Assembly (NCBI GenBank): GCA_020348925.1
Contig: CP070758.1
Span: 1,733,690-1,770,029, forward strand
DNA: 36,340 bases
Source of the DNA: Gemmatimonadota bacterium
GTDB taxonomy: Bacteria; JBHIER01; G020348925
Direction: 5' to 3'
The notes under the pieces were generated by a model, which saw only the letters and a list, made by a program, of their open reading frames with translations, searched no databases and was not told the origin of the DNA. This document shows positions 11,157-31,900 of the stretch, in pieces; position 1 is the stretch's first letter; the number at the start of each line of letters is the position of its first letter. The position numbers and the translations under genes were made by a program.

Positions 11157-11185
11157 TTGACAATAGAACATTGTCATGGTATATT
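11157..11185 (+). promoter_or_regulatory. Promoter with inverted repeat over the -35 box
   Basis: TTGACA at 11157-11162 and TATATT at 11180-11185 are 17 bases apart. A perfect inverted repeat TGACAAT-AGAAC-ATTGTCA (11158-11176) covers the -35 element and most of the spacer, a good position for a dimeric repressor. It would drive the SpoIVB-S55 gene and probably gatE-gatD. Confidence 0.65.
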
Positions 11186-11232: not shown

Positions 11233-13056
11233 ATGTATGCATTGAAAAAAACATCTTTTTACATCTGTCTCTTTTCACTCCTCCTTGCATGTGTACCTTC
11301 TTCACAGGGTGCTGATCTTGATACGAAGAAATTCATGCCGGTCGATGAAGTACGACCCGGTATGAGCGGATACGGGCTGACGGTCTTCTCCGGGATCGAG
11401 ATTGACACGTTTCAGGCTGACATTATCGGTGTTCTCAAAAAAGTCACTCCAAAGGGGGATCTTATTCTGGCCCGATTGAGCGGTGGCCCTTTGGAAAAAA
11501 CAGGCGTCCCTGCGGGCGTCAGCGGCAGTCCTGTCTATATCGAAGGCAGGTTGATCGGCGCAGCCGCTTTCGGCTGGCTCTTCGCCAAGGAACCCATTGC
11601 CGGCATCACCCCCATTGGTGAGATGCTCGATCTGTGGGCGCTCCCCTTCGAGCCGAAAGATCATCGAGAGCCAGGCTCCCTGGGATTCGACATGTCCGGA
11701 GAGAGTCCCATCGAAACCATTCCCGTCCCAGAGGATTTCCTCGCAGAATCACGGATTGCGGTTCCACCTGAAGGGACTTTTCTGAGACAGTGGGGTGCAC
11801 CTTTGGCCGTGGCCGGTTTTGACGATCGGCTCATTGAATCGATGACGCCAATCTTCGAGCGATTCGGCCTCACTCCGGTTCAGGGGGGCGCCACCTCGGA
11901 CGAAAAGGACGCACCCCCTCTTGCACCGGGATCGGCAGTGACGGCCCAATTGGTTCGGGGTGACGCCAGCATCAGTGCTGTCGGTACGGTGACCTATCGG
12001 GAGGACGACAGAGTGCTCGCCTTCGGCCATCCCCTCTTCCGTGCAGGCGGGATCGATCTGCCCATGACCGGGGGCGTCGTGCACACCGTTCTCGCCTCCC
12101 AGCAGCGCTCCTTCAAGATGGCCTCCCCCACAGCGTTGTGCGGCTCCTTTCGGCAGGACAGAAGGACCGGTGCAGCGGGACAGGTCGGCCTCGATCCGAA
12201 AATGATCCCCTGCGATATAGAAATCATCGGTCACCATTCCGGGCCGTCCGAGCGATACACCTTCGAGCTGGCCGACGACCCCCTCTTCACCCCCAACCTC
12301 CTGGGTTGGACCGCGACGAACGCGCTTCTCGCCAACGGCCAACTCGTGGGCAGAACAACAGTCAAAGTCCGGGCGACCTTTTCACTGAAGCATCAGACTC
12401 CGATCACTCTTGAAAATTTCTATTCCGGCGATCTGACGGCACTGGTGGCTGCCTTGGGGGCAGCTTCCCCCCTCGCCCTGCTCATGAACAACCCTTTTGA
12501 AGAGCTGGATATCGACAACATCTCGCTCACCCTCTGGCCCGAGGAGGAATTACGGTTTGCCGTTATCGAGGGTCTGCGCACGGATAAAGACTCGGTCAAG
12601 CCAGGGGAATCTTTGAATATAACCATTATCATCAAACCGTACCTCGGTTCTGCCATAGTGAAAGAGATGACCTTGACGATCCCCGAGGATACACCTGACG
12701 GCGTCGTATATATACTTGCCGCGGATGCAAAGACGATCGCAGCCCGGGAAAAATCGAGAGCACCCTACAACTATCGACCTGAAAACCTAAAGCAGCTCAT
12801 CGCACTCTTAGAGGAGCAAGTGCGGAACAATGAAATTGTCGTCTCCAGCTACAAGCCGTTTCACGGAATTACAATAAAAGGTGAAGAGCTTCCCTCACCA
12901 CCAACCTCTCTCCTGAGCGTCATGACCTCCTCCAAGGAGAAGGGAGAAACAGGACCGACGAGGGGCATCATCCTCGATGAAGAGCGAATAATGACGGACC
13001 ACTTCATTGTCGGTCATCAAACCTTAACCCTCACAGTTGACCAGAAGGCTAAGTAG
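11233..13056 (+). CDS. SpoIVB peptidase S55 domain lipoprotein
   Basis: The 607-residue protein has a signal with a lipobox-like LLAC (Cys20), so it is probably anchored at the envelope. Residues 35-130 carry MPVDEVRPGMSGYGLTVF, RLSGGPLEKTGVPAG and GVSGSPVYIEG (the serine motif, 95-105). The histidine motif LAFGHPLF follows at 262-269. This is the S55 arrangement found in large SpoIVB-domain proteins outside Firmicutes. SpoIVB itself is a sporulation serine protease; in non-sporulating lineages the role is unknown. The C-terminal third (about 380-600) is beta-rich and may be an Ig-like domain. It is followed 16 bases later by gatE, with which it is probably cotranscribed. The AGG just before the ATG is too close to be a good ribosome site. 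Confidence 0.8.
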   Translation: MYALKKTSFYICLFSLLLACVPSSQGADLDTKKFMPVDEVRPGMSGYGLTVFSGIEIDTFQADIIGVLKKVTPKGDLILARLSGGPLEKTGVPAGVSGSPVYIEGRLIGAAAFGWLFAKEPIAGITPIGEMLDLWALPFEPKDHREPGSLGFDMSGESPIETIPVPEDFLAESRIAVPPEGTFLRQWGAPLAVAGFDDRLIESMTPIFERFGLTPVQGGATSDEKDAPPLAPGSAVTAQLVRGDASISAVGTVTYREDDRVLAFGHPLFRAGGIDLPMTGGVVHTVLASQQRSFKMASPTALCGSFRQDRRTGAAGQVGLDPKMIPCDIEIIGHHSGPSERYTFELADDPLFTPNLLGWTATNALLANGQLVGRTTVKVRATFSLKHQTPITLENFYSGDLTALVAALGAASPLALLMNNPFEELDIDNISLTLWPEEELRFAVIEGLRTDKDSVKPGESLNITIIIKPYLGSAIVKEMTLTIPEDTPDGVVYILAADAKTIAAREKSRAPYNYRPENLKQLIALLEEQVRNNEIVVSSYKPFHGITIKGEELPSPPTSLLSVMTSSKEKGETGPTRGIILDEERIMTDHFIVGHQTLTLTVDQKAK

Positions 13057-13072: not shown

Positions 13073-15028
13073 ATGAAAGACACAGAATCCGGCGCTCTAC
13101 ACAATCTTAAGAATAATGAGACAAAAACTTACGAGGAATTAGGCCTCAAGGCAGGCGTCGAGATTCACCAGCAGCTTCTCACGGACCGAAAGCTCTTCTG
13201 CCGGTGTCCGGCGGGTATCTATACAGAGGATCACGACGGTGAGGTGCTTCGTCACATGCGTCCGACCCTTTCCGAGCTGGGTGAATACGACGGCACGGCC
13301 CTGATGGAATTCAAAACGAAAAAGCAGGTCCTTTATCTCTTGCACAGAGATTCGGTGTGCACCTATGAAATGGATGACACCCCGCCGTTTCTTGTCAACC
13401 AGCAGGCCCTCGACATCGCCATCGAAATCGCCCTCCTTCTGGGGTGTACCATCATTGACGAGATGCATGTCGCCCGCAAACAGTATCTGGACGGCAGCAT
13501 TCCCACAGGATTTCAACGGACAGCAATTGTCGGTGTCGGAGGATCTCTGCCCTATAATGGGCGAACGATCGGGATCCGGCAGGTGAACCTCGAGGAGGAC
13601 GCCTGCCGTGAGGTGAACGATTGCGGTCACACCATTACCTTCAGGACAGACAGGCTCGGAATGCCGTTAGGGGAAGTGATCACTGAGGCTGAAATGCATA
13701 CTCCTGAAGACGTAGCCGGCGTTATCGAACAGCTGGGTCGTCTCATGAGGGTTACCGGAAAAATACGGCGGGGCATCGGGTCCGTGCGCCAGGATGTCAA
13801 TGTCAGTATCACCGGTGGTACCCGTGTCGAGATCAAAGGGGTCCCGCAAATCCCCTGGGTGGCCCCGTTGGTGCACAACGAGGCTTGGCGACAGAAAGCA
13901 CTGCTGGAGCTGCGGGAGGAACTTCGCCGCCGGGGGATCTCATCCGGGACACTCCGCTACGAGATTCATAAACTGTCAGAGGTGTTCAGGCAGAGCCGAT
14001 ACCCTCCGCTCCGAAAAGCGGTGGAGAATGGGGAGACCATTCGCGGCATAAAAATCTGCGGCATCCGCGGTCTGTTAAACTTCCCGGTTCAACCAGGAAT
14101 AACGTTTGCCGACGAGATTGCCGGCCGGGTGCGGGTTATCGCCTGTCTGGATACACCCCCGATACTCATAAACACTGATGATTTTCCTAAGTACGACGGC
14201 CAGGAGCGCGAACTCACTGCTATCCGGGAAACGTTTCACTTGGGCATCCCGGATGCGGTCCTCATCTGTCACGGTTCAGACAGGGACACGAACACGGCGG
14301 TGGACGAGATTCGGCTTCGGATAGCAGATGCCATTGAAGGCGTACCGAATGAGACACGGCAGGCTTTCTCCAACGGCACCACCGATTTTGAACGCATTCT
14401 CCCTGGGCCAGACCGGATGTATCCGGACACCGACCATCCGCCGGTAAAAATAACCGAGTACCGGGTACGTAGAATCTTGCGGAGAGTTCCTGAGAAACCT
14501 TGGGTGCGAGGGGACAGTTATCTTCGTATGGGCGTATCCGAACACATTGTGAAGGAAGTGGCCGAATCTCCCCGGGCCACATTTTTCGATAGAGCTGTGC
14601 GAGATCTCGATCTTGGATCAAAGCTGATTGCGGAACTTCTTGTGGGGAAGATGAAAGCCTTGCGCCGGTCCGGGATTCCAGTCGAGGCCATCACCGACGA
14701 AAAGTTGTTCGATTTTTTTTCTGAGATGGCCCGTGGGGGGGTCTATCGAGAAGGATCAGAGTCAATTCTCACCACTATGGCTTGGAATCCTGATCTCTCG
14801 GTAAAAGAGATTTTGGAGAAATTGGATATGACTCCGTGGTCCGAGGAGGCTTTCAGGGATCTCGTTGCCGACGTCCTCTCCCGTCATCCTGACGAGGGGG
14901 GGAAAAATCCTTGTTCGCACGACAAGTTTGTGAGAATCGTAATGGGCGAGGTGATGAGAGAAGTTCGAGGGAGGTTTTCTGGGCGGGGTGCCGCCGATCT
15001 TGTGAGAGAAATAATGGAGGAGGAATGA
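13073..15028 (+). CDS. gatE: Glu-tRNA(Gln) amidotransferase subunit E
   Basis: The 651-residue protein matches GatE, the tRNA-binding kinase-transamidase subunit of the GatDE amidotransferase. Signatures include LKAGVEIHQQL at the start of the GatB-like catalytic cradle, HMRPTLSELGEYDG, RKQYLDGSIPTGFQRT, RQVNLEEDACRE, GIGSVRQDVNVSI, and after the GAD-type insert the LPGPDRMYPDTDHPPV motif. A helical YqeY-like tail closes the protein. It activates Glu on misacylated Glu-tRNA(Gln) with ATP and accepts ammonia from GatD. The ATG at 13073 is chosen over a TTG 36 bases upstream; neither has a clear Shine-Dalgarno site. Its stop overlaps the gatD start (ATGA). GatDE is known as the archaeal enzyme, so its presence in a bacterial context is unusual. 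Confidence 0.93.
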   Translation: MKDTESGALHNLKNNETKTYEELGLKAGVEIHQQLLTDRKLFCRCPAGIYTEDHDGEVLRHMRPTLSELGEYDGTALMEFKTKKQVLYLLHRDSVCTYEMDDTPPFLVNQQALDIAIEIALLLGCTIIDEMHVARKQYLDGSIPTGFQRTAIVGVGGSLPYNGRTIGIRQVNLEEDACREVNDCGHTITFRTDRLGMPLGEVITEAEMHTPEDVAGVIEQLGRLMRVTGKIRRGIGSVRQDVNVSITGGTRVEIKGVPQIPWVAPLVHNEAWRQKALLELREELRRRGISSGTLRYEIHKLSEVFRQSRYPPLRKAVENGETIRGIKICGIRGLLNFPVQPGITFADEIAGRVRVIACLDTPPILINTDDFPKYDGQERELTAIRETFHLGIPDAVLICHGSDRDTNTAVDEIRLRIADAIEGVPNETRQAFSNGTTDFERILPGPDRMYPDTDHPPVKITEYRVRRILRRVPEKPWVRGDSYLRMGVSEHIVKEVAESPRATFFDRAVRDLDLGSKLIAELLVGKMKALRRSGIPVEAITDEKLFDFFSEMARGGVYREGSESILTTMAWNPDLSVKEILEKLDMTPWSEEAFRDLVADVLSRHPDEGGKNPCSHDKFVRIVMGEVMREVRGRFSGRGAADLVREIMEEE

Positions 15029-16413
15029 ATACATCCGATACCCTGAAGGGCTACAAAGGCAGTGCCAAGGCCAAGCTCAAAGAGATGGGCGTGAGGGTCT
15101 GGAGCGACGTGGTCGTCAGGACGGCCAAAGGTGAATTTAAGGGGGTTATCCTTCCCCGGAGTGAGACTGAGGACGATCGACACGTCGTGCTCAAGCTTCA
15201 TTCCGGTTACAACGTGGGGGTCCGCGTCGACACCATCCAATCGATCGAAGAACTGGGTTACAAGGAAGCCCATTACAAGATCCCCGAACGCGACTTCCCC
15301 CAGGATGCCGCCAAACCCAACGTCACACTTTTGGGCACGGGGGGAACCATCGCCAGTCGCTTGGATTACCGGACCGGGGCCGTCATTCCGGCCTTCACCC
15401 CTGGGGAATTGTACGGAGCCGTGCCTGAGCTGGCCGATATCTGCAACCTCAAGACCATAAAGCTCTACGGTGTCTTCAGCGAAAATATGGGGCCGGAGCA
15501 ATATGTCGCCACCGCTCGGGCCATTGAAAAAGAGATCGAGGCAGGTGTTGACGGGATCGTTATCGGCCACGGCACGGATACGATGCACCACACATCGGCC
15601 ATTCTCTCCTTCATGGTGCAGAACTCTCCCGTCCCCATCGTCCTGGTCGGTTCCCAGCGCTCCAGTGACCGCCCCTCCAGTGATGCCGCCCTGAATCTCA
15701 TCAATGCCGTCCGCTCGGCGGCTTACGGCGATATTGCCGAGGTGGTCGTATGCATGTTCGGACCGACGAGTGATGAATACGATCTTCTGCATCGCGGTAC
15801 CCGCGTCCGTAAAATGCACTCCAGCTACCGCAGCACCTTCCGCACCATCGGCGACATCCCCTTGGCCATGGTCTACCCCGACCGGTTTACCTATCTTACC
15901 TCCGATTACAATATGCGACGGAAAGATCGCCTTGTACAAGTCGATACGGCCTTTGAGGAGAAAGTGGCCATTGTCTATTATTACCCCAACATGCAGCCCG
16001 ATATCATTGAATCACTCATCGATCATCAGTACAAAGGAATCGTCATCGCCGGCACCGGTCTCGGCCACGTCAACAAGCCTCTCTATAAACCTCTCAAAAA
16101 GGCTATTGATAGCGGGATCTCCGTCGTGATGACGGTGCAGACCTTATGGGGTTACGTCCAGATGTACGTCTACGACACCGGACGCGATCTCCTGGACATC
16201 GGCGTTATCCCCTTGGAAAATATGCTGCCCGAAACGGCCTACATGAAGCTCTGCTGGGTCTTGGGGCACACTACGGAACACGAAAAGGTTCGGGAGATGA
16301 TGCTTACCCCTATCAACCATGAGACAACCGAGCGGGAACCCCACAACGGCTACCTCATCTTACAGGGAGGTATTCCGGAGGTGGACACCTTTGTATCGTC
16401 ACTCAGGAAATAG
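15025..16413 (+). CDS. gatD: Glu-tRNA(Gln) amidotransferase subunit D
   Basis: The 462-residue protein is GatD, the asparaginase-like subunit that releases ammonia for GatE. After a small N-terminal beta domain (about residues 1-95) the L-asparaginase fold begins with TLLGTGGTIASR. The catalytic set is visible: Thr108 in GGTIAS, Thr184 and Asp185 in GHGTDTMHHT, and Lys263 in VRKMHSS. The GatD-specific DIGVIPLENMLPETAYMKL segment follows near the end. The start codon overlaps the gatE stop as ATGA, with GGAGGAGG-like sequence just upstream (15016-15023), giving tight translational coupling and the expected 1:1 ratio. An in-frame start at 14911 lies inside gatE and is not preferred. Its length is close to archaeal GatD. 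A stand-alone asparaginase is excluded by the N-terminal domain and the gatE partner. Confidence 0.94.
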   Translation: MNTSDTLKGYKGSAKAKLKEMGVRVWSDVVVRTAKGEFKGVILPRSETEDDRHVVLKLHSGYNVGVRVDTIQSIEELGYKEAHYKIPERDFPQDAAKPNVTLLGTGGTIASRLDYRTGAVIPAFTPGELYGAVPELADICNLKTIKLYGVFSENMGPEQYVATARAIEKEIEAGVDGIVIGHGTDTMHHTSAILSFMVQNSPVPIVLVGSQRSSDRPSSDAALNLINAVRSAAYGDIAEVVVCMFGPTSDEYDLLHRGTRVRKMHSSYRSTFRTIGDIPLAMVYPDRFTYLTSDYNMRRKDRLVQVDTAFEEKVAIVYYYPNMQPDIIESLIDHQYKGIVIAGTGLGHVNKPLYKPLKKAIDSGISVVMTVQTLWGYVQMYVYDTGRDLLDIGVIPLENMLPETAYMKLCWVLGHTTEHEKVREMMLTPINHETTEREPHNGYLILQGGIPEVDTFVSSLRK

Positions 16414-16526
16414 GACTACTGCATTCACGAACCATCAATTATTACGGAGATCTCTGCTATTTCCCCTTGATCGTTTTCAAAGAAACCATTATCTTAGCTA
16501 AAAAGTTGACTAAGGAGGTGGCTTCG

Positions 16527-16754
16527 ATGTACCAGGTCAATATACATGAGGCGAAAACGAATCTGTCCAAGCTCATTAAAAAAGTGGTGGACGGGGAAGA
16601 GGTCGTTATCGCCAAAGGAAATAAGCCTCTCGTAAAAATGGTTTTGCTGAACGGAAAGAAACCCAAACGGACATTGGGGAGCGCGAAAGGCACATTGAAA
16701 ATCTCCAAAGACTTCGATGCGCCTTTGAAAGATTTTGAAGAGTATATCAGGTGA
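16527..16754 (+). CDS. Phd/YefM-type antitoxin
   Basis: The 75-residue protein has the Phd/YefM DNA-binding fold signature: VNIHEAKTNLSKLIKKVVDGEEVVIAKGNKPLVKM at residues 4-38, with the family EAKTNLS and V(I/L)AKxxKPLV blocks. The C-terminal third is polar and would fold on the toxin. TAAGGAGGTGG at 16511-16521 sets the start at 16527 instead of an in-frame one at 16467. Its last codons overlap the toxin start (GTGA). Such antitoxins normally repress their own promoter. Confidence 0.88.
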   Translation: MYQVNIHEAKTNLSKLIKKVVDGEEVVIAKGNKPLVKMVLLNGKKPKRTLGSAKGTLKISKDFDAPLKDFEEYIR

Positions 16755-17137
16755 AGTATTTAATCGATACGCACACCCTGCTCTGGATCCTGACAGATGA
16801 CTCCAGATTAAGTAAAAAAGCAAAACGTTACTATCTTGATCCCCAAAATGAGATTCTGTTCAGTATGGCAGGTATTTGGGAACTGGCAATAAAATCAAGT
16901 CTGGGCAGACTCTCATTGGAGAAGTCCCTGGAGGAATTTGTAATGAAACATATCAAGGGTAACGACATTGGTATCTTACATATTGAGCTTCCTCACGTCT
17001 TGAGAGTAGAGCAATTACCCTTTCATCATCGGGATCCCTTCGATCGATTGCTCATTTCCCAGTCGATCGAAAATGATTTGCCGATAATCAGTTCTGACAA
17101 AACTCTTGACCGCTACAGAATACAACGCATCTGGTAA
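16751..17137 (+). CDS. PIN-domain (VapC-like) ribonuclease toxin
   Basis: The 128-residue protein is a complete PIN domain. The acidic residues that bind Mg/Mn are intact: Asp6 in YLIDTHTLLW, Glu44 in WELAIKS, Asp95 and Asp98 in HRDPFDRLL, and Asp116 in SSDKTLD. The HRDPFDRLLISQS segment is typical of the Phd-partnered VapC subgroup. It starts with GTG at 16751, overlapping the antitoxin stop. As a VapC relative it is expected to cleave an RNA, often tRNA; the target is unknown. The pair lies between gatD and the polyferredoxin gene, and the toxin stop is 3 bases before the next start. Confidence 0.9.
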   Translation: MKYLIDTHTLLWILTDDSRLSKKAKRYYLDPQNEILFSMAGIWELAIKSSLGRLSLEKSLEEFVMKHIKGNDIGILHIELPHVLRVEQLPFHHRDPFDRLLISQSIENDLPIISSDKTLDRYRIQRIW

Positions 17138-19754: not shown

Positions 19755-21473
19755 GTGGGAGAATGTCTTATTAAACAAGTGCTCGTTATCGGAGGAGGGC
19801 TGGCTGGTTTGCGGGCGGCTATCGCCGCCCACGATGCCGGATGCGACGCAGCCGTGCTCTCCAAGGTGTACCCCATCCGCTCCCATTCGGGCGCGGCCCA
19901 GGGCGGGATAAACGCCGCTCTGGCCAATCATCCTGAAGGTAAAGACGATTCCTGGGAGCGCCACGCCTTCGATACCATCAAGGGCTCGGACTATTTGGCC
20001 GACCAACCGCGAGTTGAAATTCTGACCCAGGAGGCACCGGAACGGGTCCTGGAAATGGAGCACTGGGGCACATACTTCAGCCGCACTCCCGATGGACACA
20101 TCGCCCAGCGTCCCTTCGGCGGAGCCGGTTTTCCCCGCACCTGCTATGCCGCCGACCGGACCGGCCATCACCTGCTTCACACCCTGTGGGAACAATGCCT
20201 CAAGAGGAATATAACCCTTTACAACGAATGGCTTATAACCTGTCTCGTTGTTCACGGAGGACGGGTCTTCGGTGCGATCTCTCTCCATATCCCGACCGGC
20301 CAATTACAGGCTTTTGGCGCTCATGCGATTATCATCGCCGGTGGCGGTCACGGCCGAATCTTCGCCAAATCGACCAACGCCTACATCAACACCGGCAGCG
20401 CCACGGCTGCCGCCTTTCGGGCGGGGGTACCTTTAGAGGACATGGAGTTCGTCCAGTTTCACCCCACCACCCTGTACGGCACCAATATCCTTATCACAGA
20501 AGGTGTGCGAGGTGAAGGGGGCATTCTCGTGAATGCCAAGGGGGAGCGCTTTATGGAGCGGTACGCATCCACAGTGATGGAGCTGGGTCCCCGTGATATC
20601 GTCGCCAGAGGCATTCAGACTGAGATTGACGAAGGCAGAGGATTTAAAGGGAAATATGGGAGTTACGTGCACCTTGACGTGCACCACCTGGGCGCCGACG
20701 TCATCAAGACGAGGCTGCCGGGCATCCGACAGATCGCCATGGACTTTGCCGGAGTCGATCCCATCGAAGCGCCCATTCCCATTCAACCCGGCCAGCACTA
20801 TTCCATGGGCGGCCTGGCCTGCGACGAGAACGGTCAGACACCTATCGAGGGACTCTTTGCCGTCGGCGAATGCTCCTGCGTCAGCGTCCACGGGGCCAAC
20901 AGGTTGGGCGGCAACTCCCTCCTGGAGACCATTATCTTCGGAAAGCGAGCCGGGGAGCAGGCCGCGAATATAGCAAAAAATGCGGACAAGCCAGGCTCTG
21001 AATCTGTTTTGAACGATGTGCTCCGTGAGCAGGAAGCCGATATCAAAAGCCTGAAAGCTCGGACAAAAGGGGAGCGCCAGATCACGATCCGCCGACGAAT
21101 GCAGGCTGAGATGACTGAGAAGGTGGGTCTTTTCAGAGAAGAAAAATCCCTCACGAAGACTGTGGAAAAACTGGCCCAGCTCAAGGAGGAATACAAGAAG
21201 GTTATTATCGACAACAAGGGTGATGCTTTCAATTACGATTTAATGGATGCACTGGAACTGGGCGGTATGCTGGAACTGGCTGAGGTGACGGCTCAGACTG
21301 CGTTGAGGCGGAGGGAGTGCCGGGGCAGCCACTGGCGAACAGACCATCCCAGTCGAAAGGACGAGGAGTGGATGAAACACAGCCTGGCTTTTTTCAATCC
21401 GGAGGGACCACCACGCATTGAATATGAAGATGTTCTCATTACCACATACGAGCCCACCGTGCGAAAATATTAG
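19755..21473 (+). CDS. sdhA: Succinate dehydrogenase/fumarate reductase flavoprotein subunit
   Basis: The 572-residue protein is the FAD subunit of complex II. VLVIGGGLAGLRAAIAA at 9-25 binds the FAD dinucleotide. His44 in RSHSGAAQGG is the residue that carries covalent FAD. FVQFHPTTLYG, EGVRGEGGIL, HYSMGGLACDENGQT and GANRLGGNSLLE supply the dicarboxylate site and capping domain. It oxidises succinate or reduces fumarate; the direction cannot be read from sequence. The start is GTG at 19755 with AGAGG eight bases upstream. Its partner sdhB lies downstream after wrbA, and no cytochrome b or anchor subunit is nearby. The length matches SdhA of classical enzymes (about 570-590). Confidence 0.93.
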   Translation: MGECLIKQVLVIGGGLAGLRAAIAAHDAGCDAAVLSKVYPIRSHSGAAQGGINAALANHPEGKDDSWERHAFDTIKGSDYLADQPRVEILTQEAPERVLEMEHWGTYFSRTPDGHIAQRPFGGAGFPRTCYAADRTGHHLLHTLWEQCLKRNITLYNEWLITCLVVHGGRVFGAISLHIPTGQLQAFGAHAIIIAGGGHGRIFAKSTNAYINTGSATAAAFRAGVPLEDMEFVQFHPTTLYGTNILITEGVRGEGGILVNAKGERFMERYASTVMELGPRDIVARGIQTEIDEGRGFKGKYGSYVHLDVHHLGADVIKTRLPGIRQIAMDFAGVDPIEAPIPIQPGQHYSMGGLACDENGQTPIEGLFAVGECSCVSVHGANRLGGNSLLETIIFGKRAGEQAANIAKNADKPGSESVLNDVLREQEADIKSLKARTKGERQITIRRRMQAEMTEKVGLFREEKSLTKTVEKLAQLKEEYKKVIIDNKGDAFNYDLMDALELGGMLELAEVTAQTALRRRECRGSHWRTDHPSRKDEEWMKHSLAFFNPEGPPRIEYEDVLITTYEPTVRKY

Positions 21474-21518
21474 AGGAAATACAGTGCCCACCTTTACAAG
21501 CAAGAAAGGAGGAACATC

Positions 21519-22139
21519 ATGAGCACCATCAAAGTAAACATCATCTTCCACAGCTTTTACGGCCATATCTACCGCATGGCCGAGGCCATCGCCGAAGGCG
21601 CCAGGGAGATTGAGGGCAGTGAGGTGAACCTTTTTCAAGTCCCCGAGACGCTTTCTGAGGACGTACTGGCCAAAATGGGTGCCTTGGAACCGAAAAAAAC
21701 CTTTGCCCACATTCCAGAGGCGACGATGGATCATCTTGAAAAGGCTCACGCCATCATCCTCGGCACACCCACCAGGTTCGGCAATATGACGGCACAGATG
21801 CGGGCCTTTCTCGACAGAACCGGTCAACTCTGGGCAAAGGGGACTCTCGACGGCAAGGTCGGCAGTGTCTTCACCTCCAGCAACACTCAACACGGGGGGC
21901 AGGAAACCACAATCGTCAGTACGCACTTTACACTGCTTCATCAGGGCATGATTATTGTCGGTCTACCCTACACCTTTCAGGGGCAGTCGCGCATCGATGA
22001 AATCACTGGTGGCTCCCCCTACGGTGCGTCGACAATAGCCGGTAGTCGTGGTGACCGCATGCCCAGTGAGAACGAGCTGGATGCAGCGCGTTTTCAGGGA
22101 AAGCGTGTGGCCGAAATCGCGAAGCGCCTCTTCGGATAA
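21519..22139 (+). CDS. wrbA: WrbA-type NAD(P)H:quinone oxidoreductase
   Basis: The 206-residue flavodoxin-like protein has the WrbA pattern: NIIFHSFYGHIYRMAEAIAEGA at the FMN phosphate loop, PEATMDHLEKAHAIILGTPTRFGNMTAQMRAFLD, VFTSSNTQHGGQETT and GGSPYGASTIAGSRGDRMPS. Such enzymes are FMN tetramers that reduce quinones by two electrons. AAGGAGG precedes the ATG. It sits 45 bases after sdhA and 13 bases before sdhB, so it is made with them and could serve the same quinone pool; that link is inference. Confidence 0.93.
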   Translation: MSTIKVNIIFHSFYGHIYRMAEAIAEGAREIEGSEVNLFQVPETLSEDVLAKMGALEPKKTFAHIPEATMDHLEKAHAIILGTPTRFGNMTAQMRAFLDRTGQLWAKGTLDGKVGSVFTSSNTQHGGQETTIVSTHFTLLHQGMIIVGLPYTFQGQSRIDEITGGSPYGASTIAGSRGDRMPSENELDAARFQGKRVAEIAKRLFG

Positions 22140-22152
22140 AAAGGATCCGGGG

Positions 22153-22884
22153 ATGGCTGCGAAGAATTTTACCTTTCGCATTCGACGGTTCGATCCCGAA
22201 CGTGACAAGGAACCTCATTTCGAGGGGTATTCTTTAGATGTTTCCGAGGACATGACGGTCCTCGAATCACTCCTGAGAATTCAGACAGAACAGGACGGTA
22301 CTCTATCTTTCCGCTACGCCTGCCGGGGTGCCGTGTGCGGCTCCTGCGCCATGGTCATCAACGGCCGCATTGACCTGGCCTGCCGCAGCCAGGTGCAGGT
22401 TCTCAACCAGGAGACAATCACCATCGAGCCATTACCTCATCTTTCGGTGATCAAAGACCTTGTGGTGGATATGGATCTGTTCTTGAGCAAGAACCAAACC
22501 GTTCAGCCGTGGTTGCAGCCAATTGGACATGAGCCTGAGCGGGAGAATTTGGTCGATCCGGTACAATGGGCCGAGGCGGAACCTTATACCAACTGCATCC
22601 TGTGCGCCTCATGCTACGGCGTCTGTCCGAAGGCCGGACAGGATCCGGACTATCTCGGACCCGCGGCTCTGGCCAAGCACTACCGCTTTCTGGCGGACAT
22701 AAGAGACAAGGCGGACGAAACGCGCCTTGCACTCGTCAATAACGACCACGGAATCTGGGGTTGTGATATGGTCTGGAACTGTGTGGAGATATGTCCCAAG
22801 GGTGTTCCGCCCACCCAGGGTATCGGTAAAACCCGCGCTCGCATACGACGGGCCCAACGGGATCAAGAGAAGGGACACACGTAA
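22153..22884 (+). CDS. sdhB: Succinate dehydrogenase/fumarate reductase iron-sulfur subunit
   Basis: The 243-residue protein holds all cluster ligands of a complex II iron-sulfur subunit. Cys57, Cys62, Cys65 and Cys77 bind [2Fe-2S] (CRGAVCGSC). Cys148, Cys151, Cys154 and Cys214 fit the [4Fe-4S] cluster, and Cys158, Cys204 and Cys210 the [3Fe-4S] cluster. The start at 22153 is preferred over one at 22048 that overlaps wrbA by 92 bases and gives an unrelated N-terminus. It passes electrons from the flavoprotein towards quinone, which needs a membrane subunit not found in this window. Confidence 0.93.
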   Translation: MAAKNFTFRIRRFDPERDKEPHFEGYSLDVSEDMTVLESLLRIQTEQDGTLSFRYACRGAVCGSCAMVINGRIDLACRSQVQVLNQETITIEPLPHLSVIKDLVVDMDLFLSKNQTVQPWLQPIGHEPERENLVDPVQWAEAEPYTNCILCASCYGVCPKAGQDPDYLGPAALAKHYRFLADIRDKADETRLALVNNDHGIWGCDMVWNCVEICPKGVPPTQGIGKTRARIRRAQRDQEKGHT

Positions 22885-22907
22885 TACGAAACACGCAAGA
22901 GAAAACC

Positions 22908-24290
22908 ATGAGAACCGAACGAGACGTTATAGGAGAGATCCAAATCCCAGACAAAGCCTTGTGGGGCGCGCAGACCCAGAGGGCTATTGAGAATTTTCCC
23001 ATCTCCGGCCTCCGCTTCGGACGGAGGTTCATTCAGGCTCTGGGTTTGGTGAAAAGAGCGTGCGCCCTGGCAAACAGCGACCTGAGCCTGCTGGATAAAG
23101 AATTGGGAGAAGCTATCACACGAGCGTGCGATGAGGTTATTGAAGGGAAGTGGGACGACCAGTTTCCCCTGGACATTTTCCAGACAGGCTCCGGTACATC
23201 GACCAACATGAACGCCAACGAGGTCATCGCCAACCGGGCGATACAATTGCTGGGGGGTACGGTCGGCACGAAGAATCCGGTCCACCCCAACGATCATGTC
23301 AACATGAGTCAATCCAGCAACGACTTTTTTCCCACGACCATTCATGTGGCGGCAGTCCTGGCCCTGCGCGACGAGCTCATTCCGGCCCTGGAACATCTGC
23401 GCGATGCCCTTTCTGAAAAGGCCAGGGCTTTCGACCATATCGTCAAGGCGGGCCGCACGCACCTTCAGGATGCCACGCCGATCCGCCTCGGACAGGAGTT
23501 CGGTGGCTACAGAACCCAGATCGAAAAATCCATCGAGCGGGCATACAGCGCGATCGACGCTTCGAATGAACTGCCCTTGGGCGGTACGGCCGTAGGGACT
23601 GGGGTTAACCGCCTGAAAAAGTTTCCTCAAAAAGCCATAGACTACCTGAACGAATCTCTTGGTACGAACTTTTACGAAGCCGTAAACCACATCGAGGCCA
23701 ACGCCGCCCGCGACTCCATTGTGGAAGCTTCGGGTCAACTGAAGACTATCGCCGTGAGCTTGACGAAAATTGCCAACGATATCCGCTGGCTCGGCTCAGG
23801 TCCCCGCAGCGGCCTTGGGGAGCTGCGCCTCCCTGCCTTACAGCCCGGCTCGTCCATCATGCCCGGCAAGGTCAATCCGGTCATGGGTGAGGCCCTAATT
23901 ATGGTGGCCGCCCAGGTCATCAGCCACGATGCTGCTATAACCCAGGGAGGATTGGATAGCCACTTCGAGTTGAACACCATGATGCCGCTCATAGCGTACA
24001 ATCTCATCAGCTCCATTGAATGGATGGCCAAGGTCCTGAGGGCTTTTACCGACAGATGCGTCGTTGGCCTCGAGGCGGACGAGGAGCGCTGCCGCGAGAC
24101 CGTGGAGCGAAATCTGGCCCTGGCCACGGCTTTGGCTCCGGTCATCGGCTACGACAGGGCCGCTGACATCAGCAAGGAGGCTTATCGGAGTGGTCGAACG
24201 GTACGGGAGGTGGCTCTGGATTGGAAGGTGCTTCCTCCTGAAGAACTGGACACGCTGCTCGATCCGTCCAAGATGACGGAACCCGATTAA
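22908..24290 (+). CDS. fumC: Class II fumarate hydratase
   Basis: The 460-residue protein is a FumC-type fumarase. It carries GSGTSTNMNANEV, HPNDHVNMSQSSND (substrate loop), GRTHLQDATPIRLGQE and the superfamily signature GSSIMPGKVNP at 314-324. It interconverts fumarate and malate, the step next to the complex II reaction, and follows sdhB by 23 bases. No iron-sulfur ligands are present, as expected for class II. Its length is normal (460-470). Confidence 0.95.
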   Translation: MRTERDVIGEIQIPDKALWGAQTQRAIENFPISGLRFGRRFIQALGLVKRACALANSDLSLLDKELGEAITRACDEVIEGKWDDQFPLDIFQTGSGTSTNMNANEVIANRAIQLLGGTVGTKNPVHPNDHVNMSQSSNDFFPTTIHVAAVLALRDELIPALEHLRDALSEKARAFDHIVKAGRTHLQDATPIRLGQEFGGYRTQIEKSIERAYSAIDASNELPLGGTAVGTGVNRLKKFPQKAIDYLNESLGTNFYEAVNHIEANAARDSIVEASGQLKTIAVSLTKIANDIRWLGSGPRSGLGELRLPALQPGSSIMPGKVNPVMGEALIMVAAQVISHDAAITQGGLDSHFELNTMMPLIAYNLISSIEWMAKVLRAFTDRCVVGLEADEERCRETVERNLALATALAPVIGYDRAADISKEAYRSGRTVREVALDWKVLPPEELDTLLDPSKMTEPD

Positions 24291-24584: not shown

Positions 24585-25802
24585 CTATTTCATGAGTACC
24601 ATTCTCTTCGTGTCCGTGAACTCATCAGCCACAATCCGGTAGAAGTAGACGCCACTGGGCAAGCCTGTCGCGTCCCAATTCATGCTGTAATACCCGGCTT
24701 CCAGCTCAGTATCAACCAAGACCTCCACCACTTGACCCAACGTATTGTGCACAGTGAGCTGCACCTCACTGTCCTCCGGCAGACCGAACTCGATACTTGT
24801 CTCTGGATTGAAGGGATTGGGGTAGTTTTGGGCCAAGGCATACTCTGCCGGCACGGGCCCGGCCATCTTGAACCGCGGCGGCCGTCCCACCTCCAGGGTC
24901 ACGTCGTCCGTCTGCGTCGTGCTTCCATCATCGCCCATAACAGTCAACACATAGCTCCCCGGATGCACACCACGCGTCACCTGGATCACCAACATCACCG
25001 TCACCGACCCACGGGCCGGCACCATCACCACAGCGCCGGGATCGAAATAGTACCGCCTCGTGCCAAGCGGCAGGCCCATCACACTCAAACTCACCGCACC
25101 GGTGTAACAATCGACTGAACTGACCGTCACATCGTAGTTGGCCGTCCCCAGAAAACCGCCAAACCATTCCACCCTGGCCACGTCCGGAGAGGCCGACACC
25201 TCAAAATCAGGACTGCCTGCCATATCAGGATCGTTCTGGTCGATCAAACCGTCACAGTCGTTGTCCTGACCGTCACACACTTCCGCATTGCCCGGATAGT
25301 TGTTGGGATTGGCGTCATCGCAGTCGCAGTCATCTGCCCACCCGTCGCCGTCTCCGTCCGGAGAGGGGACCAAGGGATTGGGATCTATGGCGTCCGGACA
25401 TCCATCGTTGTCGTCGTCATCATCGCATACATCCCCAACTCCATCCACGTCAGCATCTTCCTGGCCAGGGTTAAACACGCTCGGGCAGTTGTCGAGGAGA
25501 TCCTCTAATCCATCACCATCGCTATCCAGCCCAGCCGAGGCCGCGAGATATCCCCCCAAGTTCTTGTAGCTCGCACTCTCGCTCTTGCCCAGAACCGGCT
25601 CGCCACCCGCACTTTCCTTCATCTGGTATGTTCCGGATATACCAGACCCGGCAAGGGCGAGGATGGCACATTTCTTCTCCCTGTAGTTCTCACTGGCCTT
25701 CTCCTGTGTGTTGGCTATCAGTACGGCAAGGAGTAAGCCCAAACAGAGCAACAGGACAATCTCCGCTCGTCCCTGTCTCCTCCTCTTTCTTTTGCCAACC
25801 AT
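24585..25802 (-). CDS. Secreted thrombospondin-3/MopE-like protein with sorting tail
   Basis: The 405-residue protein has a basic N-terminus and hydrophobic signal (about 14-31). Residues about 92-150 hold calcium-binding thrombospondin type 3 repeats ([35 protein letters not shown]). About 150-190 holds the metal-binding motif [14 protein letters not shown] seen in MopE-like proteins. The middle resembles an Ig-like domain. The last 80 residues are the [17 protein letters not shown] ... GVYFYRI tail, as used for type IX secretion sorting or FlgD-type Ig folds. It is probably a surface or extracellular protein. AAAGGAG precedes the ATG. It lies 82 bases downstream of the S74 gene and may be cotranscribed with it. 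Confidence 0.8.
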
Positions 25803-25884
25803 GGTCGTTCTCCTTTATTTGTCATTTAAATTTCGTAATTTGGATGTTATGTTTCGTCCGATATAAAATCAAAGACTGCAATTT

Positions 25885-27567
25885 TTATTCAACCTCCTCT
25901 TTCAGATCAGCGATGTCTCTCTTCAACTCATCGATGGTCTTCTGCTGCTCCTGAACCACCTTGGTCAAGACAGCCACGACATCCATGGGACTCATACCCT
26001 CCCTGTCTTTTGTTGATACGAGCTCAGGAACATCCTCGGCGATGAAGCCAAGGTGCTGTTCATCTTTGTCCACCTTGTAGTTGAACGTTACCGGATTCAA
26101 ATCCTCAAGGGCCTCGACGGCTGCTTCGGAGGTCAGCTCATGAATATTCTCCTTGTACTTTCGACTGGAGGCATTTGTCCAGACACCCCCTGCCGTACAA
26201 TGAGCGCCGCTCCCCATATGCAGTGGATACGATGGGTTCGTCGTGTCGATACCGACATAGCCTTCAAACCACGCGGCAACAGGAGAACCTTCGGCAACAA
26301 GACCTACCCCATTCGTGCATTGAAAATAACCGCCATAGCCAGTTGCGGACACACCATTGACAGCAGCACCGCTATTACTGTAAGAAGTGACACCTTCTCC
26401 ACCACCTGCGGCGTAGGCACATATACCACCAGCAGTACCCAAATTCTCAACTCTTAATATACACCAGTCTGTTGTGCTTCCTGATATTTCCTGCATTGTG
26501 TCACAGTCCAAGGTCACGTACTTGTCACTGAGAGACGACGTGCCTTCATAGAGTGTATCAGTGACATTGTACCGACCCCAATCGCTGGAAGCGGCTCCCG
26601 CCGCAGTGGTCTGGACCGAGCCATCGGGAAATTTGAATCCACCCATGGTTGAATGAATGAGGCCACCGGCCGACATACCCAGGAATGAGGACAATTGTTC
26701 TACGGAAACCAAGCCATTGCTGGACATCATGAGACCCTGGCCGATCGCGGCTCCATCCGTTATACGGATCAGGCTGGTCCATGTGTCACCACTCGAAATT
26801 GAGAGAAAATCATTACTGTCCGAGGGGTTCGTTATTTTTAGCACCCCATCGATAACGGCGCTGCTATCGACTTCCAGAACACCTTCAATGTCAACATTTC
26901 CATTCAGCCAGGCGGCAAGGTGCCCTGGAGCAGCTTCAGCAGCAAGACCCGGACCATTGACGGACTGAAAGTAACCGCCCCAGCCATCGATGGAAACGCC
27001 ATGCACACCAATACCACCATCACCGCACTGACCGCGCACTGCCGCTCCCCAACCGTTGCTATATCCATCGAGGCCGATGCCGTTACCCATATTTTCAGCT
27101 CTTAACATCCAATCGCCGGCGCTTCCCGTTATCTCCTGCGAACCGTCAGTAGTACTCACGAACCCGGAAGCGTGCTTGCCGTCCAATCGGTCTGCATTCA
27201 TGGCATAGGGCACACTGCCAACTTTATGTCTGGGTGTCATCTCCGAATCAGAGCCGACCGTGATCCCCAGCCACTTGTCGCTGCCGTCAAACATCAAATC
27301 CAGATTTGGAGTTATACTGCCCAATAGAACAGTATAGCTGCCTTCATCCACGTCCACCGACCCGTGCGCCTCCGTCCATACCGGACTTCCGCCTGTTGTC
27401 ACATTATACAAGTTGAACGTTATCGATACCGTGCCGGTTATCGGCACTCCAGCACCGTCCGTCAATTTCCCCGTGTAATAGAACATTCCCGGAAAGGCCA
27501 AAGCCGAAACGGCTCCACAAAGAATGCCCATCAGGGCAACCGTCACAAAAGTTTTGAACGCCTTCAT
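25885..27567 (-). CDS. Secreted tail-fibre-like protein with S74 chaperone domain
   Basis: The 560-residue protein has a clear signal peptide (KTFVTVALMGILCGAVSALA). Next is a beta domain typical of exported FCB-type proteins (YTGKLTDGAGVPITGTV, DGSDKWLGITVGSDSEMTP, LDGKHASGF). A long glycine-rich central part has repeated GYGGYFQ / GWGGYFQ and WL(N/E)G units. The C-terminal 95 residues form a peptidase S74 intramolecular chaperone: SSRKYKENIHEL with its Ser and Lys, NPVTFNYK, HLGFIAEDVPEL, and a final coiled coil. In phage tail spikes this domain trimerises the fibre and is then cut off. The start at 27567 (GGGAGGAAG) gives the clean signal peptide; ATGs at 27666 and 27717 are in frame and the first of these has its own AGGAGG. 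Confidence 0.78.
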   Translation of the reverse strand: MKAFKTFVTVALMGILCGAVSALAFPGMFYYTGKLTDGAGVPITGTVSITFNLYNVTTGGSPVWTEAHGSVDVDEGSYTVLLGSITPNLDLMFDGSDKWLGITVGSDSEMTPRHKVGSVPYAMNADRLDGKHASGFVSTTDGSQEITGSAGDWMLRAENMGNGIGLDGYSNGWGAAVRGQCGDGGIGVHGVSIDGWGGYFQSVNGPGLAAEAAPGHLAAWLNGNVDIEGVLEVDSSAVIDGVLKITNPSDSNDFLSISSGDTWTSLIRITDGAAIGQGLMMSSNGLVSVEQLSSFLGMSAGGLIHSTMGGFKFPDGSVQTTAAGAASSDWGRYNVTDTLYEGTSSLSDKYVTLDCDTMQEISGSTTDWCILRVENLGTAGGICAYAAGGGEGVTSYSNSGAAVNGVSATGYGGYFQCTNGVGLVAEGSPVAAWFEGYVGIDTTNPSYPLHMGSGAHCTAGGVWTNASSRKYKENIHELTSEAAVEALEDLNPVTFNYKVDKDEQHLGFIAEDVPELVSTKDREGMSPMDVVAVLTKVVQEQQKTIDELKRDIADLKEEVE

Positions 27568-27632
27568 CGGTCTTCCTCCCTTTCGGTTCTGTATGTGAAA
27601 CACATTAAACAAACCCGCAGGTACAAAATGTA

Positions 27633-27737
27633 TTAACAATACTCTCCACCGAAACTCTTTCTCCATGTTGTCCCTCCTTTGCATTGGGTTCCTGCTACAA
27701 TCCTTCTCGTAATCCACACACCGAAACCATTTCTCAT
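27633..27737 (-). CDS. Possible 34-residue leader peptide upstream of the S74 gene
   Basis: A short ORF (MRNGFGVWITRRIVAG...) has GGGAGGTGACGCCT before its ATG. Its end overlaps an in-frame upstream start of the S74 gene at 27666 (AGGAGGGACAAC-ATG), which would allow translational coupling. The peptide resembles nothing I know. It may be only a spurious ORF. Confidence 0.3.
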   Translation of the reverse strand: MRNGFGVWITRRIVAGTQCKGGTTWRKSFGGEYC

Positions 27738-28568
27738 AGGCGTCACCTCCCGTTCGGTTTGTCCGTTCGGTTCCCCTGCATTCGCAGGGGCAAGCCTCTT
27801 ATCCGTTTTTGACTTCTCTCTTGTCAAAGAGTCTGCCATGCCTGTCCCGTAAACAGTCTCGGGGAGTTTGTCGAAGGAAGGATTGAGGAAGATTCATCTT
27901 TTATTGAAACAATCCCCTCTCACTCCCCATTGACAAAGGGGAGAATTATTTCACCACAACGACAACGTACTCGCCTCCCTCCACATGCCACCGCGCCCCT
28001 GCCCTCTGCATCTCGGCACTCTTGTGTGCTGTTGATCACGTCCTTAAAGTTTTTCTTTCCCTGTAATTCATGAACGGCCTTTCTCCGTTCTCCATTTTCC
28101 CTTGAATCCTTGGCCCCTCGAATCCTAGAATCCTGACTTAAAACAAAAAACCCCCTGTCACTCACTCGAAAATGGGCGAAATAGGGGCTTGTTCACCTTG
28201 AATGGAAAAGACGGAAATAAGAACCATCTCTCCCCCTATGTTACAGATTCTAAGATTTGAAGATGTACGTTACCCAGTAGCTGTATGATCAAAGAAATAT
28301 GGAATGCATAGACACAGTTTGACAAAAACGCTCCTCTAACTATTCTGGGTTTGATATTATTTTTTAAATTATGCAATATTTTAATAGATGTCAAGCACAA
28401 TATGATTAAATATCATAATTATTTATCAATAAAAATAAATCATCTTATATTTTTCAAGCATTCCTTGCTATAACGAAATGTTCTTCACTTTTACTATTAT
28501 ATTAAGCTGAATTTTAATAATGATTTATTTAAAAGCCGGAAGTTTTAACATTTTTATCGACTATTCTT

Positions 28569-28806
28569 GGGGGTCGCATCTTTGATCTTTAATCTTCTTT
28601 CTTATATCTCACACCTCCCTGTGGTCCATCCTTGATAGTGGGGACAATGAGCAGGCTATCCATGTTCTGAGGTTCGAAGCCTCCATCCTTCGACTCCGCT
28701 CAGGATGAAGGTACATTCGCGACATCGACACGCTGGGCGTAGTCGAGGCATTCATTTTCAGTGCCAGGTTTATCCTTCGTCATGCCTAGCGGAGTCGAGG
28801 AGGCAT
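28569..28806. repeat. Dispersed intergenic repeat, copy 2
   Basis: The segment repeats the 24318 unit (GGGGGTCGCATCTTTGATC and following) and CCTTCGACTCCGCTCA at 28687-28702. CCTAGCGGAGTCGAGG at 28785-28800 is the inverted partner of that second motif, so the pair forms a palindrome-like REP structure about 115 bases across. Confidence 0.55.
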
Positions 28807-28847
28807 ATTCTCTTCAGACTACCATTAACAGGACGAAACCTCCCACA

Positions 28848-28882
28848 GAAAAGCCGCCGGGTTCAACTGCACCTGGCGGCTT
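28848..28882 (-). terminator. Rho-independent terminator of the caspase-fold gene
   Basis: On the minus strand a 10-bp stem (GCCGCCAGGT / ACCCGGCGGC, one G-T pair) with an 8-base loop is followed by TTTTC. It lies about 28 bases after the stop codon of the gene ending at 28910. Confidence 0.85.
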
Positions 28883-28909
28883 CTCATTTCTGTCCAAAAA
28901 AACAGAAGG

Positions 28910-31900
28910 CTATTTCATCAGCACCATCCGCCTCGTGGCCGTAAAATCTCCAGATTGCAGTCGATAGAAATATATGCCGCTCGAGATCTCATGGCCTTCC
29001 TCGTCCAGCCCGTCCCAGGTCACTTCGTAATACCCCGGCTCCTTCACCTCATCCACCAGCGTCCGCACCGCCTGCCCGAGGATGTTGTAGATCTTCAGGG
29101 TGGTGTGGACGGCGGATCTATTATCTGCTATCTGGTATCTGATATCCGTGCTGGGGTTGAAGGGATTGGGGTAGTTCTGTGACAGATGAAATTCCGTCGG
29201 GACACCAATCGCTTTTTCGACCAAAGTCATGAGTCTCTCAAAATCCTCGTCCGTAAGGTATGATCGAAGCGACTGCAGAAAGACCAGAGCGTCCTCTGAA
29301 ATGGTGACCCTGGGAAGGCCGGGCACACACTCGCCGATACCCAGGATCACATTTACGATGGACAGAGCATCGAGAACATCGTACTCCAGGTCACCGTTGC
29401 AGTCTGCCCGCAGGAGGGCGTTCCCTTCCAGAGGTACAAGTGTTAGGATATGATTGACAACGGCCAGGACATCCAGCACGTTGATGCTGCCGTCACCGTT
29501 GGGATCGCCAATAATAGTCGACTCCTCGCGGCCGAAGAGGAAGTCGTTCACGTAACCGACCTGCTCCTCGTAAGCATCGTACAGAGGAATCGGTATGACA
29601 CTGGCGCGGCCCCACTCGGCGTCCTCGGGGAACATCTGATCTGCCGACGGACACTGGCTCAGGCTCGCCGCCATACGAATGGGGACATGATTCAGACATT
29701 TCTCCCTGACTATGTCCGGATCGTCGAATTCGATCTCAAGAAAAACATCGAAAAAGGATTCGCACGGCATGAGACCTGTGGGATCAATTTCGATGATCTC
29801 TCCTGTAGAGGGCACATCAGGTCGCTGGGTAACCGTTACCGGCCCCAAACTGGAGCTTCCTGTCAGACTCATCTCCACGATTTCCGTCTGGATCTCGGGG
29901 ACGCCGTCATCATTCGCGTCATCCCAGTCACACCGGCTGACCACCACCGGACCTGTCAAATCCAGAGCCACATCGCCAAATCCCGCAAGGTTCACATACA
30001 CCGTCGCGCCGACATTGAGAGCCTCCGTAGCCACAACGCACGACCTGTCCACCCACTCTGGGAAGGAGAAGGTTAGGTACTCGGATTCCAGAATACCATC
30101 GGGAAGCTGTTCCACGCCGGTCTCGATTTTGAGCACCAGTTCAGGCTCCAGGCAGACGTTGCCCAGGGGATTGGACACCCACAGCTCTACCGTCCCCATC
30201 TGACCTTCAGGCACAAAGAGCGACCACTGGTCCGGCTCCAGCTGGCCGAGATTCTCACCGAGGAGCTCCACCGTACTCCCCTCAGGCAGCGTGACATCAT
30301 AGGCATAGATGTTGAAATACGCCACCCCCAGTCCCTCGGCACCACCGATGGAAATGGGCATCATGGTCCGATGGTCACTGCTTTCATACATATCCACGAC
30401 GCTCCACTTCTTCCAGCCCACCATGGTCTCCGTCTCCAGGAGAAACATCCCGTAACCGATGGTGAGGGGGTAAAAATCGGCAAAAGATGCATTGGTGAAG
30501 GTGTGCCTGGCCCCATCACCGGTCAGGGTCATCACATCACCTGCCAGACTCCCCACCTGTGGCGTGAACGCGCCGAAAAGATACTCGGCATAATAGGGCA
30601 GGATGGAGACTTGGGGCGGATAGAGTTCGCTCGGTGCGTAATACCAGTAGTCGACAAAGGTCTCCTGGGGCGTGAAGAAGGTGTCCGGGGGCACCCAGGT
30701 CGTATCCGGCGGGGGAACGCGCCCGCGGTCTCCGCGGGGCTTCGACATGTGCGCCAGCGGTTCACCGGGGCAGTGGTACAGTTGCGGATGGGACGGGAAG
30801 GTGTCGGGCAGCGGATAGTACCCCCTCGAAAAGTCCGTGATGACCTCATCGTAAGCCTCGGACCAGGTGAAGCCGTCTGGCACACCGTCGTCATTTTGAC
30901 CCTGGGCCGCAGCAGCGATGAGCTGCTGGATGAAGATCCGCTCGAAGTAGGAGTGGGCAGTGTCAGGTCCGGCGTTCCTACACCTGCTGGTCTCGTTCCA
31001 GTTGGCTGCTGTGACGATATTGACTTCACAGGGTGCCCTCAGGTCGCCGGCGGACGTCCACTGGCGGCAGAGCAAATCTTTAATATTGGAGGCGATCCCC
31101 CCGCTGAAACAGCAGTCGATCTCAATATTCAGCCTGTCAAGACCGGCGTCCACGCAAACCTTGATCATGTTGGCAAAATCTGCGTCCCTCAATCCCTGAT
31201 TCCCCCACAGCACCAGGTACTGGGGCACATTGATGAGGGTACCGCCGACGGTATTATCCCCGTCCACATCGATCCCCTTTATATGAATATTTCCATCCGC
31301 ATCAACGGTGAGACTCGAAAAACCATTTGGGGCCGTGACTTCAACCCCATCCCGAAACAGGCGGTACGTCCCGTCCGAATACCGCCTGATCTCAAAGGTG
31401 ACCTGCTGACCGGAAGCCGTCGCCTCCACCGTTCGGCTTAACCGGATAAATCCGGCCGGAGGTATGGCGAGCGGCCCGAACACGAGCTCAGCATCCCTCT
31501 CCGCCTGATGATCGTCCGTAATGGTCGTCGAATCGCCGTGACTGACGTTCGCCCCGTGGGAGGAGATGAGGATCTGCAACTCTGTGTTTAAACACCGGTT
31601 GTGGCAGTCCCGGATGCTGTCGGCGAAGGCGGAAAACTGGCTCTGGATGTTGGCCGAACTGGCCCCCTGAGGTGCGGGAGGCCGGGGAATATCGCGTTTG
31701 GGTGGGCCGGGGTTCCAGACGCTGTTCGTCAGGGTATTGTATTGGGACCATCCATTCGCCGCAGTGAAGGGGGCACCGGGTACACCGCCACCCTCCCAGA
31801 AGACAGCGAGATGATCTGCCTCGTATCCCCCGTAGCCCAACTTATAGATGAGCTTGAGACACATGTCGTTGTATACGGCGTTGCGGATGCGATCGGAGTC

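Follow-up and report, generated by a model that had tools for sequence, protein, structure and literature searches.

What does a bacterium do with GatDE, an amidotransferase of transfer RNA (tRNA) charging that textbooks reserve for archaea? The question is raised by two overlapping genes, gatE and gatD, of a Gemmatimonadota bacterium, located in a stretch of 36,340 nucleotides (here called the window) which corresponds to positions 1733690–1770029 of the forward strand of contig CP070758.1 (assembly GCA_020348925.1), a single contig of 5,037,917 bases. We found that the two genes encode complete GatE and GatD proteins belonging to a separate, largely bacterial GatDE clade; we refer to this clade as type II and to the canonical archaeal GatDE as type I. 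We are inclined to regard the window pair as a working amidotransferase of the type II branch which acts on glutamate attached to tRNAs of the tRNAGln type, both activity and substrate being predicted.

The gatE-gatD pair

Both products exceed curated equivalog cut-offs. GatE scores 564.6 bits against NF003107 of NCBIfam (cut-off 456) and 469.5 bits against TIGR00134 (cut-off 319.6), and GatD 521.7 bits against TIGR02153 (cut-off 324). Pfam recognizes GatB_N and GatB_Yqey in GatE, and GatD_N with both asparaginase domains in GatD. The best PDB sequence matches of GatD are the GatD chains 2d6f_A and 1zq1_A (E ~1e-121). The AlphaFold model of GatE has a mean predicted local distance difference test (pLDDT) score of 86.8; the best PDB match of this protein is Pyrococcus abyssi GatE (1zq1_C, E 1e-43), and the best matches of the model are GatE of P. 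abyssi (1zq1) and of Methanothermobacter thermautotrophicus (2d6f). The GatD model was of moderate quality (pLDDT 75) and was left unused. The insert region of GatE is modelled confidently and the family match runs over the full length, yet the Pfam GAD domain misses the window GatE and matches only some of its type II relatives.

The catalytic residues of both subunits are retained. GatD residues T108, T184, D185 and K263, reported as kept by an earlier, sequence-only reading of this DNA, align with T101, T177, D178 and K254 of M. thermautotrophicus and show no variation among the 120 GatD compared (81 type II and 39 type I). In GatE, H32, E174 and E201, which have a metal-site role in the GatB and GatE structures, align with H15, E157 and E184 of M. 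thermautotrophicus and are invariant throughout GatE of both types and in the two GatB examined. With the cut-offs passed, the catalytic residues in place and the ATGA overlap of the two genes seen in the sequence, the earlier claim of a complete GatDE pair in a bacterial genome holds. As a small caveat, no obvious ribosome-binding site is seen in the sequence for the gatE ATG at 13073. The host assembly is 96.3% complete and 0.52% contaminated, and its G+C content is even across the locus. A chimera at this site is unlikely, since the genome consists of one 5.04-Mb contig.

A largely bacterial sister branch of archaeal GatDE

Trees of both subunits, proposed as a check by the sequence-only reading, placed the window GatE and GatD inside the type II clade and outside the canonical archaeal GatDE. 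Type II is split from type I by branches of 0.77–1.23 changes per site with full support. When rooted with GatB, it is sister to type I, not nested within it (support 100/99 and 98/92), although the GatB root of the GatE tree depends on long branches and must be taken as tentative. The window GatE is 26–39% identical to canonical archaeal GatE, and the window GatD 34–44% to canonical GatD.

The two types also differ in sequence hallmarks, with some 20 or more positions per subunit conserved in a type-specific manner. A C-terminal tail of GatD is found in 78 of the 81 type II proteins (the remaining 3 end early) and is absent from all 36 type I proteins examined for it. In the GatE loop 138–145, type II proteins carry Y138, I143 and P144, whereas V138 and N143 are invariant in type I, where position 144 is almost always T; the type II loop is thus partly GatB-like, by Y138 and, in some GatB, also by P144. 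Mean pairwise identity reaches 69% in type II versus 43% in type I for GatD, and 46% versus 39% for GatE.

Type II proteins are present in at least 15 bacterial phyla plus a few archaea. Relatives in our scan of GTDB genomes number at least 579; the 80 best among them come from Planctomycetota, Acidobacteriota, Aminicenantes, Ignavibacteriota, Zixibacteria, KSB1, Electryoneota, Fermentibacterota, Krumholzibacteriota, Eisenbacteria, Marinimicrobia, Cloacimonadota, Myxococcota, Gemmatimonadota, WOR-3, Coatesbacteria and others, and also include two Thermoplasmatota. In three archaeal groups (nine genomes; loci L114, L120 and L231–L237) type II is the sole GatE; as neither a second GatE nor a GatB match was found there, it is presumably their only Glu-tRNAGln amidotransferase. 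For some of the type II-bearing genomes, neighbouring genes for a thermosome and for formate-dependent purine synthesis (PurP-type) support an archaeal nature. A bacterial bin, G006 (L009), carries a GatDE resembling the canonical archaeal type I in the order gatD-gatE, which reflects either a separate transfer or contamination. In the open-access literature, we found no paper on bacterial GatDE or on the type II branch. The protein family as such is known, and automatic annotation will name the type II proteins GatD and GatE; what is new is the bacterial-dominated sister branch, whose accepted role is often redundant in its hosts.

We surveyed 386 diverse bacterial genomes for co-occurrence. 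GatE exceeded the cut-off in 24, and about 11 more had near-cut-off or fragmentary matches, giving 35 GatE-positive genomes. GatD was present in 34 of these 35, the exception being one fragmentary bin; since the two genes are unlinked in several genomes, the partnership seems to be kept for a reason. GatB was absent from 21 of the 35 and present in 14 (once as a fragment), so that GatDE occurs in 21/69 GatB-less versus 14/317 GatB-bearing genomes (odds ratio 9.5, Fisher p 4e-9); GatB was counted as absent from a GatE-less genome if it gave no match or at most a very weak one. GlnRS scored above the cut-off in 21 GatE-positive genomes and as fragments in 2 more, i.e., in about two thirds. Type II GatDE therefore tends to replace GatCAB, mostly alongside GlnRS. 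A survey from 2014 knew of no bacterium with both routes to Gln-tRNA (PMC4206432).

tRNA charging in the host and the role of type II GatDE

In the host genome, a bacterial GluRS gene is directly followed by a bacterial GlnRS gene (743 bits on TIGR00440), and glutamine synthetase is encoded nearby; bacterial AspRS and AsnRS and a LysRS are present as well. Searches with PF02934 and TIGR00133 matched gatE alone as the single GatB/GatE-family gene; the host thus has no GatB and therefore no GatCAB. With GlnRS and AsnRS, direct charging is available for both amides, and the textbook role of GatDE, as the cell's only way to Gln-tRNA, is dispensable here. The sequence-only reading had suggested a search for gatCAB, glnS and an aspS or asnS of archaeal type: gatB is missing, glnS and asnS are there, and aspS turned out to be bacterial, with a non-discriminating signature. 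This AspRS (L005 1114–2904) carries RRRDHGG / RPEG, as in the non-discriminating AspRS (ND-AspRS) of Pseudomonas aeruginosa, and is without the residues of the discriminating AspRS (D-AspRS) of Escherichia coli or Thermus thermophilus (RRRDLG / RDEK, RPE-); we take positions H31 and G82 to be the determinants of discrimination. ND-type residues of the anticodon domain thus stand in this AspRS despite the presence of AsnRS and the absence of GatB.

Because the host GlnRS can already make Gln-tRNAGln, GatDE most likely serves as a second route or in the clean-up of Glu-tRNAGln in a cell without GatCAB. GatD would hydrolyse Gln or Asn as amide donor and free ammonia; GatE would bind a misacylated tRNA of the tRNAGln type, activate the side-chain carboxylate of the attached Glu at the expense of ATP and place the ammonia on it, giving Gln-tRNA.

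This role is suggested by the tRNA genes found beside type II gatE. Across 123 type II loci (1.05 Mb, with some overlap), every tRNA gene located within 200 nucleotides of gatE was a Gln or Glu gene or a tRNAGln-like one with a stop anticodon. A tRNA-Gln(CUG) lies 33 nucleotides downstream of gatE in the archaeal genomes G557 and G593 (L235/L272 and L237/L274) and divergently from gatE in a Myxococcota bin (L045), while a tRNA-Glu(CUC) is placed upstream of gatE in another bacterium (L046). The stop-anticodon genes, at most about 130 nucleotides upstream of gatE, have the anticodon UUA in G314 and G034 and CUA in G179, all three of the Coatesbacteria family; the gene of an unrelated Holophagaceae bin has CUA. 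All have complete folds with CCA and resemble bacterial tRNAGln, and the three from the Coatesbacteria family exceed the Rfam tRNA threshold (44–49 bits). The chance that five lineages would all be of the Gln, Glu or stop type is ~5e-6 for a random draw among about 45 tRNA genes, a rough figure framed post hoc. No comparable gatE-tRNA linkage was seen at type I archaeal loci, and the majority of type II loci are without a linked tRNA. Neither Rfam nor ARAGORN detected a tRNA near the window genes. A stop-anticodon tRNA was found neither in the window nor among 38 host tRNA genes, a list that is without several necessary isoacceptors and does not establish absence.

Several points weigh against a role in Gln-tRNA formation. 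Canonical archaeal GatDE recognizes the A1-U72 pair of tRNAGln (PMC9499178), whereas both host tRNAGln found carry U1-A72 and G73. GlnRS occurs in the host and in 21 to 23 of the 35 GatE-positive bacteria, so that GatDE looks redundant for Gln-tRNA. The association with GatB loss ignores shared ancestry, and some bins are incomplete. The host GluRS has Arg at the position of T. thermophilus R358, usually read as a mark of discrimination. As a test of GluRS discrimination we rejected this residue as not diagnostic, since the same Arg is found in GatE-positive genomes without GlnRS (G103, G179, G034, G314, G137, G295 and G258).

As to origin, the sequence-only reading had left a choice between an acquired archaeal operon and a bacterial group carrying GatDE natively; of these the latter fits much better, given the separate clade to which both subunits belong in the trees, and the pair does not appear to be a recently captured archaeal operon. 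By tree path, the nearest relatives of the window GatD are five archaeal GatD (77–80% identity), closer than any bacterial GatD seen, as expected of such a capture, but these five archaea themselves carry type II, and the window GatE pairs in the tree with a bacterial genome (G321, 60% identity). Given also the long branch and low identity that separate the pair from canonical archaeal GatDE and the single contig, a recent archaeal transfer into the lineage or a chimera is highly improbable. We also think it very unlikely that the pair is a remnant in decay or a metabolic asparaginase/glutaminase unrelated to tRNA. GlnRS and AsnRS make GatDE look dispensable and GatD alone resembles a type I asparaginase, but the catalytic residues of both subunits are all invariant, GatD is far more conserved in type II than in type I, and it accompanies GatE almost without exception.

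A substrate other than Glu-tRNAGln deserves more attention, since the AspRS signature makes Asp-tRNAAsn a possible substrate of the host GatDE. Type II GatDE might act on it, alone or besides Glu-tRNAGln, with ND-AspRS misacylating tRNAAsn and the amidotransferase making Asn on the tRNA, which we consider unlikely though by no means far-fetched. An amidotransferase is said to go with ND-AspRS in every case (PMC6523644), and none besides GatDE was found in the host; the host tRNAAsn has U1-A72, and the GatE loop partly resembles that of GatB. In Bdellovibrio, GatCAB fills this role despite AsnRS and GlnRS (PMC4206432). Moreover, G102, a GatDE-bearing genome without GatB, combines AsnRS with an archaeal-type AspRS of the NCBI family 'aspartate--tRNA(Asn) ligase'; about 1.44 of its 1.9 Mb, and thus partial evidence, contained neither a bacterial AspRS nor an asnB-like frame. 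Against this stand the tRNA genes within 200 nucleotides of type II gatE, none of which is tRNA-Asn, the G102 AspRS, which has neither of the assumed determinant pairs and is of ambiguous specificity, and the Glu specificity of canonical GatDE. The linkage to tRNA-Gln favours the Glu role, and both roles may hold. The stop-anticodon tRNAs in turn raise the idea of a recoding module, in which type II GatE would cooperate with stop-reading tRNAGln variants and to which the window pair would belong, its own special tRNA being located elsewhere or lost. The repeated placement of such genes upstream of gatE, in one family and in an unrelated bin, is consistent with it. We nevertheless hold it to be improbable, as no such tRNA was found in the window or in the incomplete host list and most type II loci lack a linked tRNA; in addition, gatB and gltX of the Coatesbacteria family still end in TAG or TAA, which argues against wholesale code reassignment there. 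A broader version is rather doubtful as well: type II GatDE would be a GatCAB substitute with a wider substrate range, and in some bacteria GatE with a UAA/UAG-reading tRNAGln would form an undescribed amidotransferase-dependent recoding system, to which the window pair is a relative. We thus retain amidation of Glu on tRNAGln-type tRNAs as the favoured role.

Locus features, related systems and significance

Coordinates of the features discussed are given in Table 1.

Table 1. Features of the gatE-gatD locus (window positions) and stop-anticodon tRNA genes beside other type II gatE genes (positions within the named loci).
Feature	Position	Strand	Remark
gatE, type II	13073–15028	+	651 amino acids, complete; GatB/GatE catalytic domain, putative AspRS-like (GAD) insert at about residues 296–420, YqeY-like tail
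GatE kinase-transamidase centre codons	H32 13166–13168; E174 13592–13594; E201 13673–13675	+	conserved site
GatE loop 138–145, YLDGSIPT	13484–13507	+	type II/type I/GatB alignment
Purine-rich GGAGGAGGA	15016–15024	+	immediately 5' of the gatD ATG
ATGA overlap, gatE stop/gatD start	15025–15028	+	read in sequence; translational coupling predicted
gatD, type II	15025–16413	+	462 amino acids, complete; GatD_N and type-I-asparaginase fold
GatD amidase site codons	T108 15346–15348; T184 15574–15576; D185 15577–15579; K263 15811–15813	+	alignment invariance
GatD C-terminal tail E438–E452, EPHNGYLILQGGIPE	16336–16380	+	type II only; comparison of type II and type I GatD
Stop-anticodon tRNA, G314	L012 3196–3270 (= L094 16–90)
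Stop-anticodon tRNA, G179	L013 1309–1383
Stop-anticodon tRNA, G034	L015 1309–1383
Stop-anticodon tRNA, Holophagaceae bin	L073 4188–4263

Directly upstream of gatE, a SpoIVB/S55-like protein (11233–13056; Pfam match just under the cut-off) is preceded by a promoter-like TTGACA-17-TATATT (11157–11185). Shortly downstream of gatD lies a Phd/YefM antitoxin and PIN toxin pair (16521–17137), followed by a cluster (19755–24290) encoding a fumarate reductase/succinate dehydrogenase flavoprotein, a flavodoxin/FMN reductase-like protein, an iron-sulfur subunit and a class II fumarase. Type IX sorting or FlgD-like tails mark proteins of the region 24585–35360, which also encodes an endosialidase-chaperone (S74) protein and, together, a SpoIIE phosphatase and a protein with a histidine-kinase-like ATPase domain (34932–35360). 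Around type II genes in general, no family other than gatE and gatD recurs, the remaining clusters consisting of small groups confined to single clades and of long frames on the reverse strand of the same genes; the S55, PIN/antitoxin and succinate dehydrogenase genes of the window are therefore uninformative. Separately, the GatDE-bearing genome G102 carries a tRNA-Sec gene with a UCA anticodon (L354 3252–3348).

With the archaeal GatDE of P. abyssi and M. thermautotrophicus, the window pair shares the two subunits, their domains and catalytic residues, the GatE fold and the equivalog assignments. It differs by its place in a mostly bacterial sister clade, by low identity, type-specific positions and the extra GatD tail, and by a host with GlnRS and U1-A72 tRNAGln. 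Its likeness to GatCAB lies in the catalytic domain and active-site residues common to GatE and GatB, in the GatE loop and in the occurrence of type II mainly where GatB is missing. Unlike in GatCAB, the ammonia of GatDE comes from an asparaginase-type subunit, GatE has a putative AspRS-like insert, and GatB is only 15–20% identical to the window GatE in structure matches (23% for one); moreover, the host has no GatB. Bdellovibrio, Legionella, Thermus and Deinococcus, which combine AsnRS, GlnRS, ND-AspRS and GatCAB, resemble the host in having direct routes for both amides, an extra amidotransferase and an ND-looking AspRS; there, however, the extra enzyme is GatCAB, and here it is GatDE. As in pyrrolysine-type systems, the stop-anticodon tRNA of the Coatesbacteria and Holophagaceae genomes adjoins a gene acting on aminoacyl-tRNA, but this tRNA is tRNAGln-like, no dedicated synthetase was seen, and it was not found among the tRNA genes listed for the window genome.

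A complete GatDE in a bacterium contradicts the textbook generalization, and since the branch is mostly bacterial and usually stands beside GlnRS, the rules for loading Gln-tRNA need revisiting. Given that it occurs in this many bacterial phyla, with GlnRS in some two thirds of the carriers sampled, both the archaeal history claimed for GatDE and the reason why a second amidation route is kept become directly testable. The linkage of gatE to tRNAGln genes, including those with stop anticodons, provides a concrete lead to an undescribed use of the enzyme.

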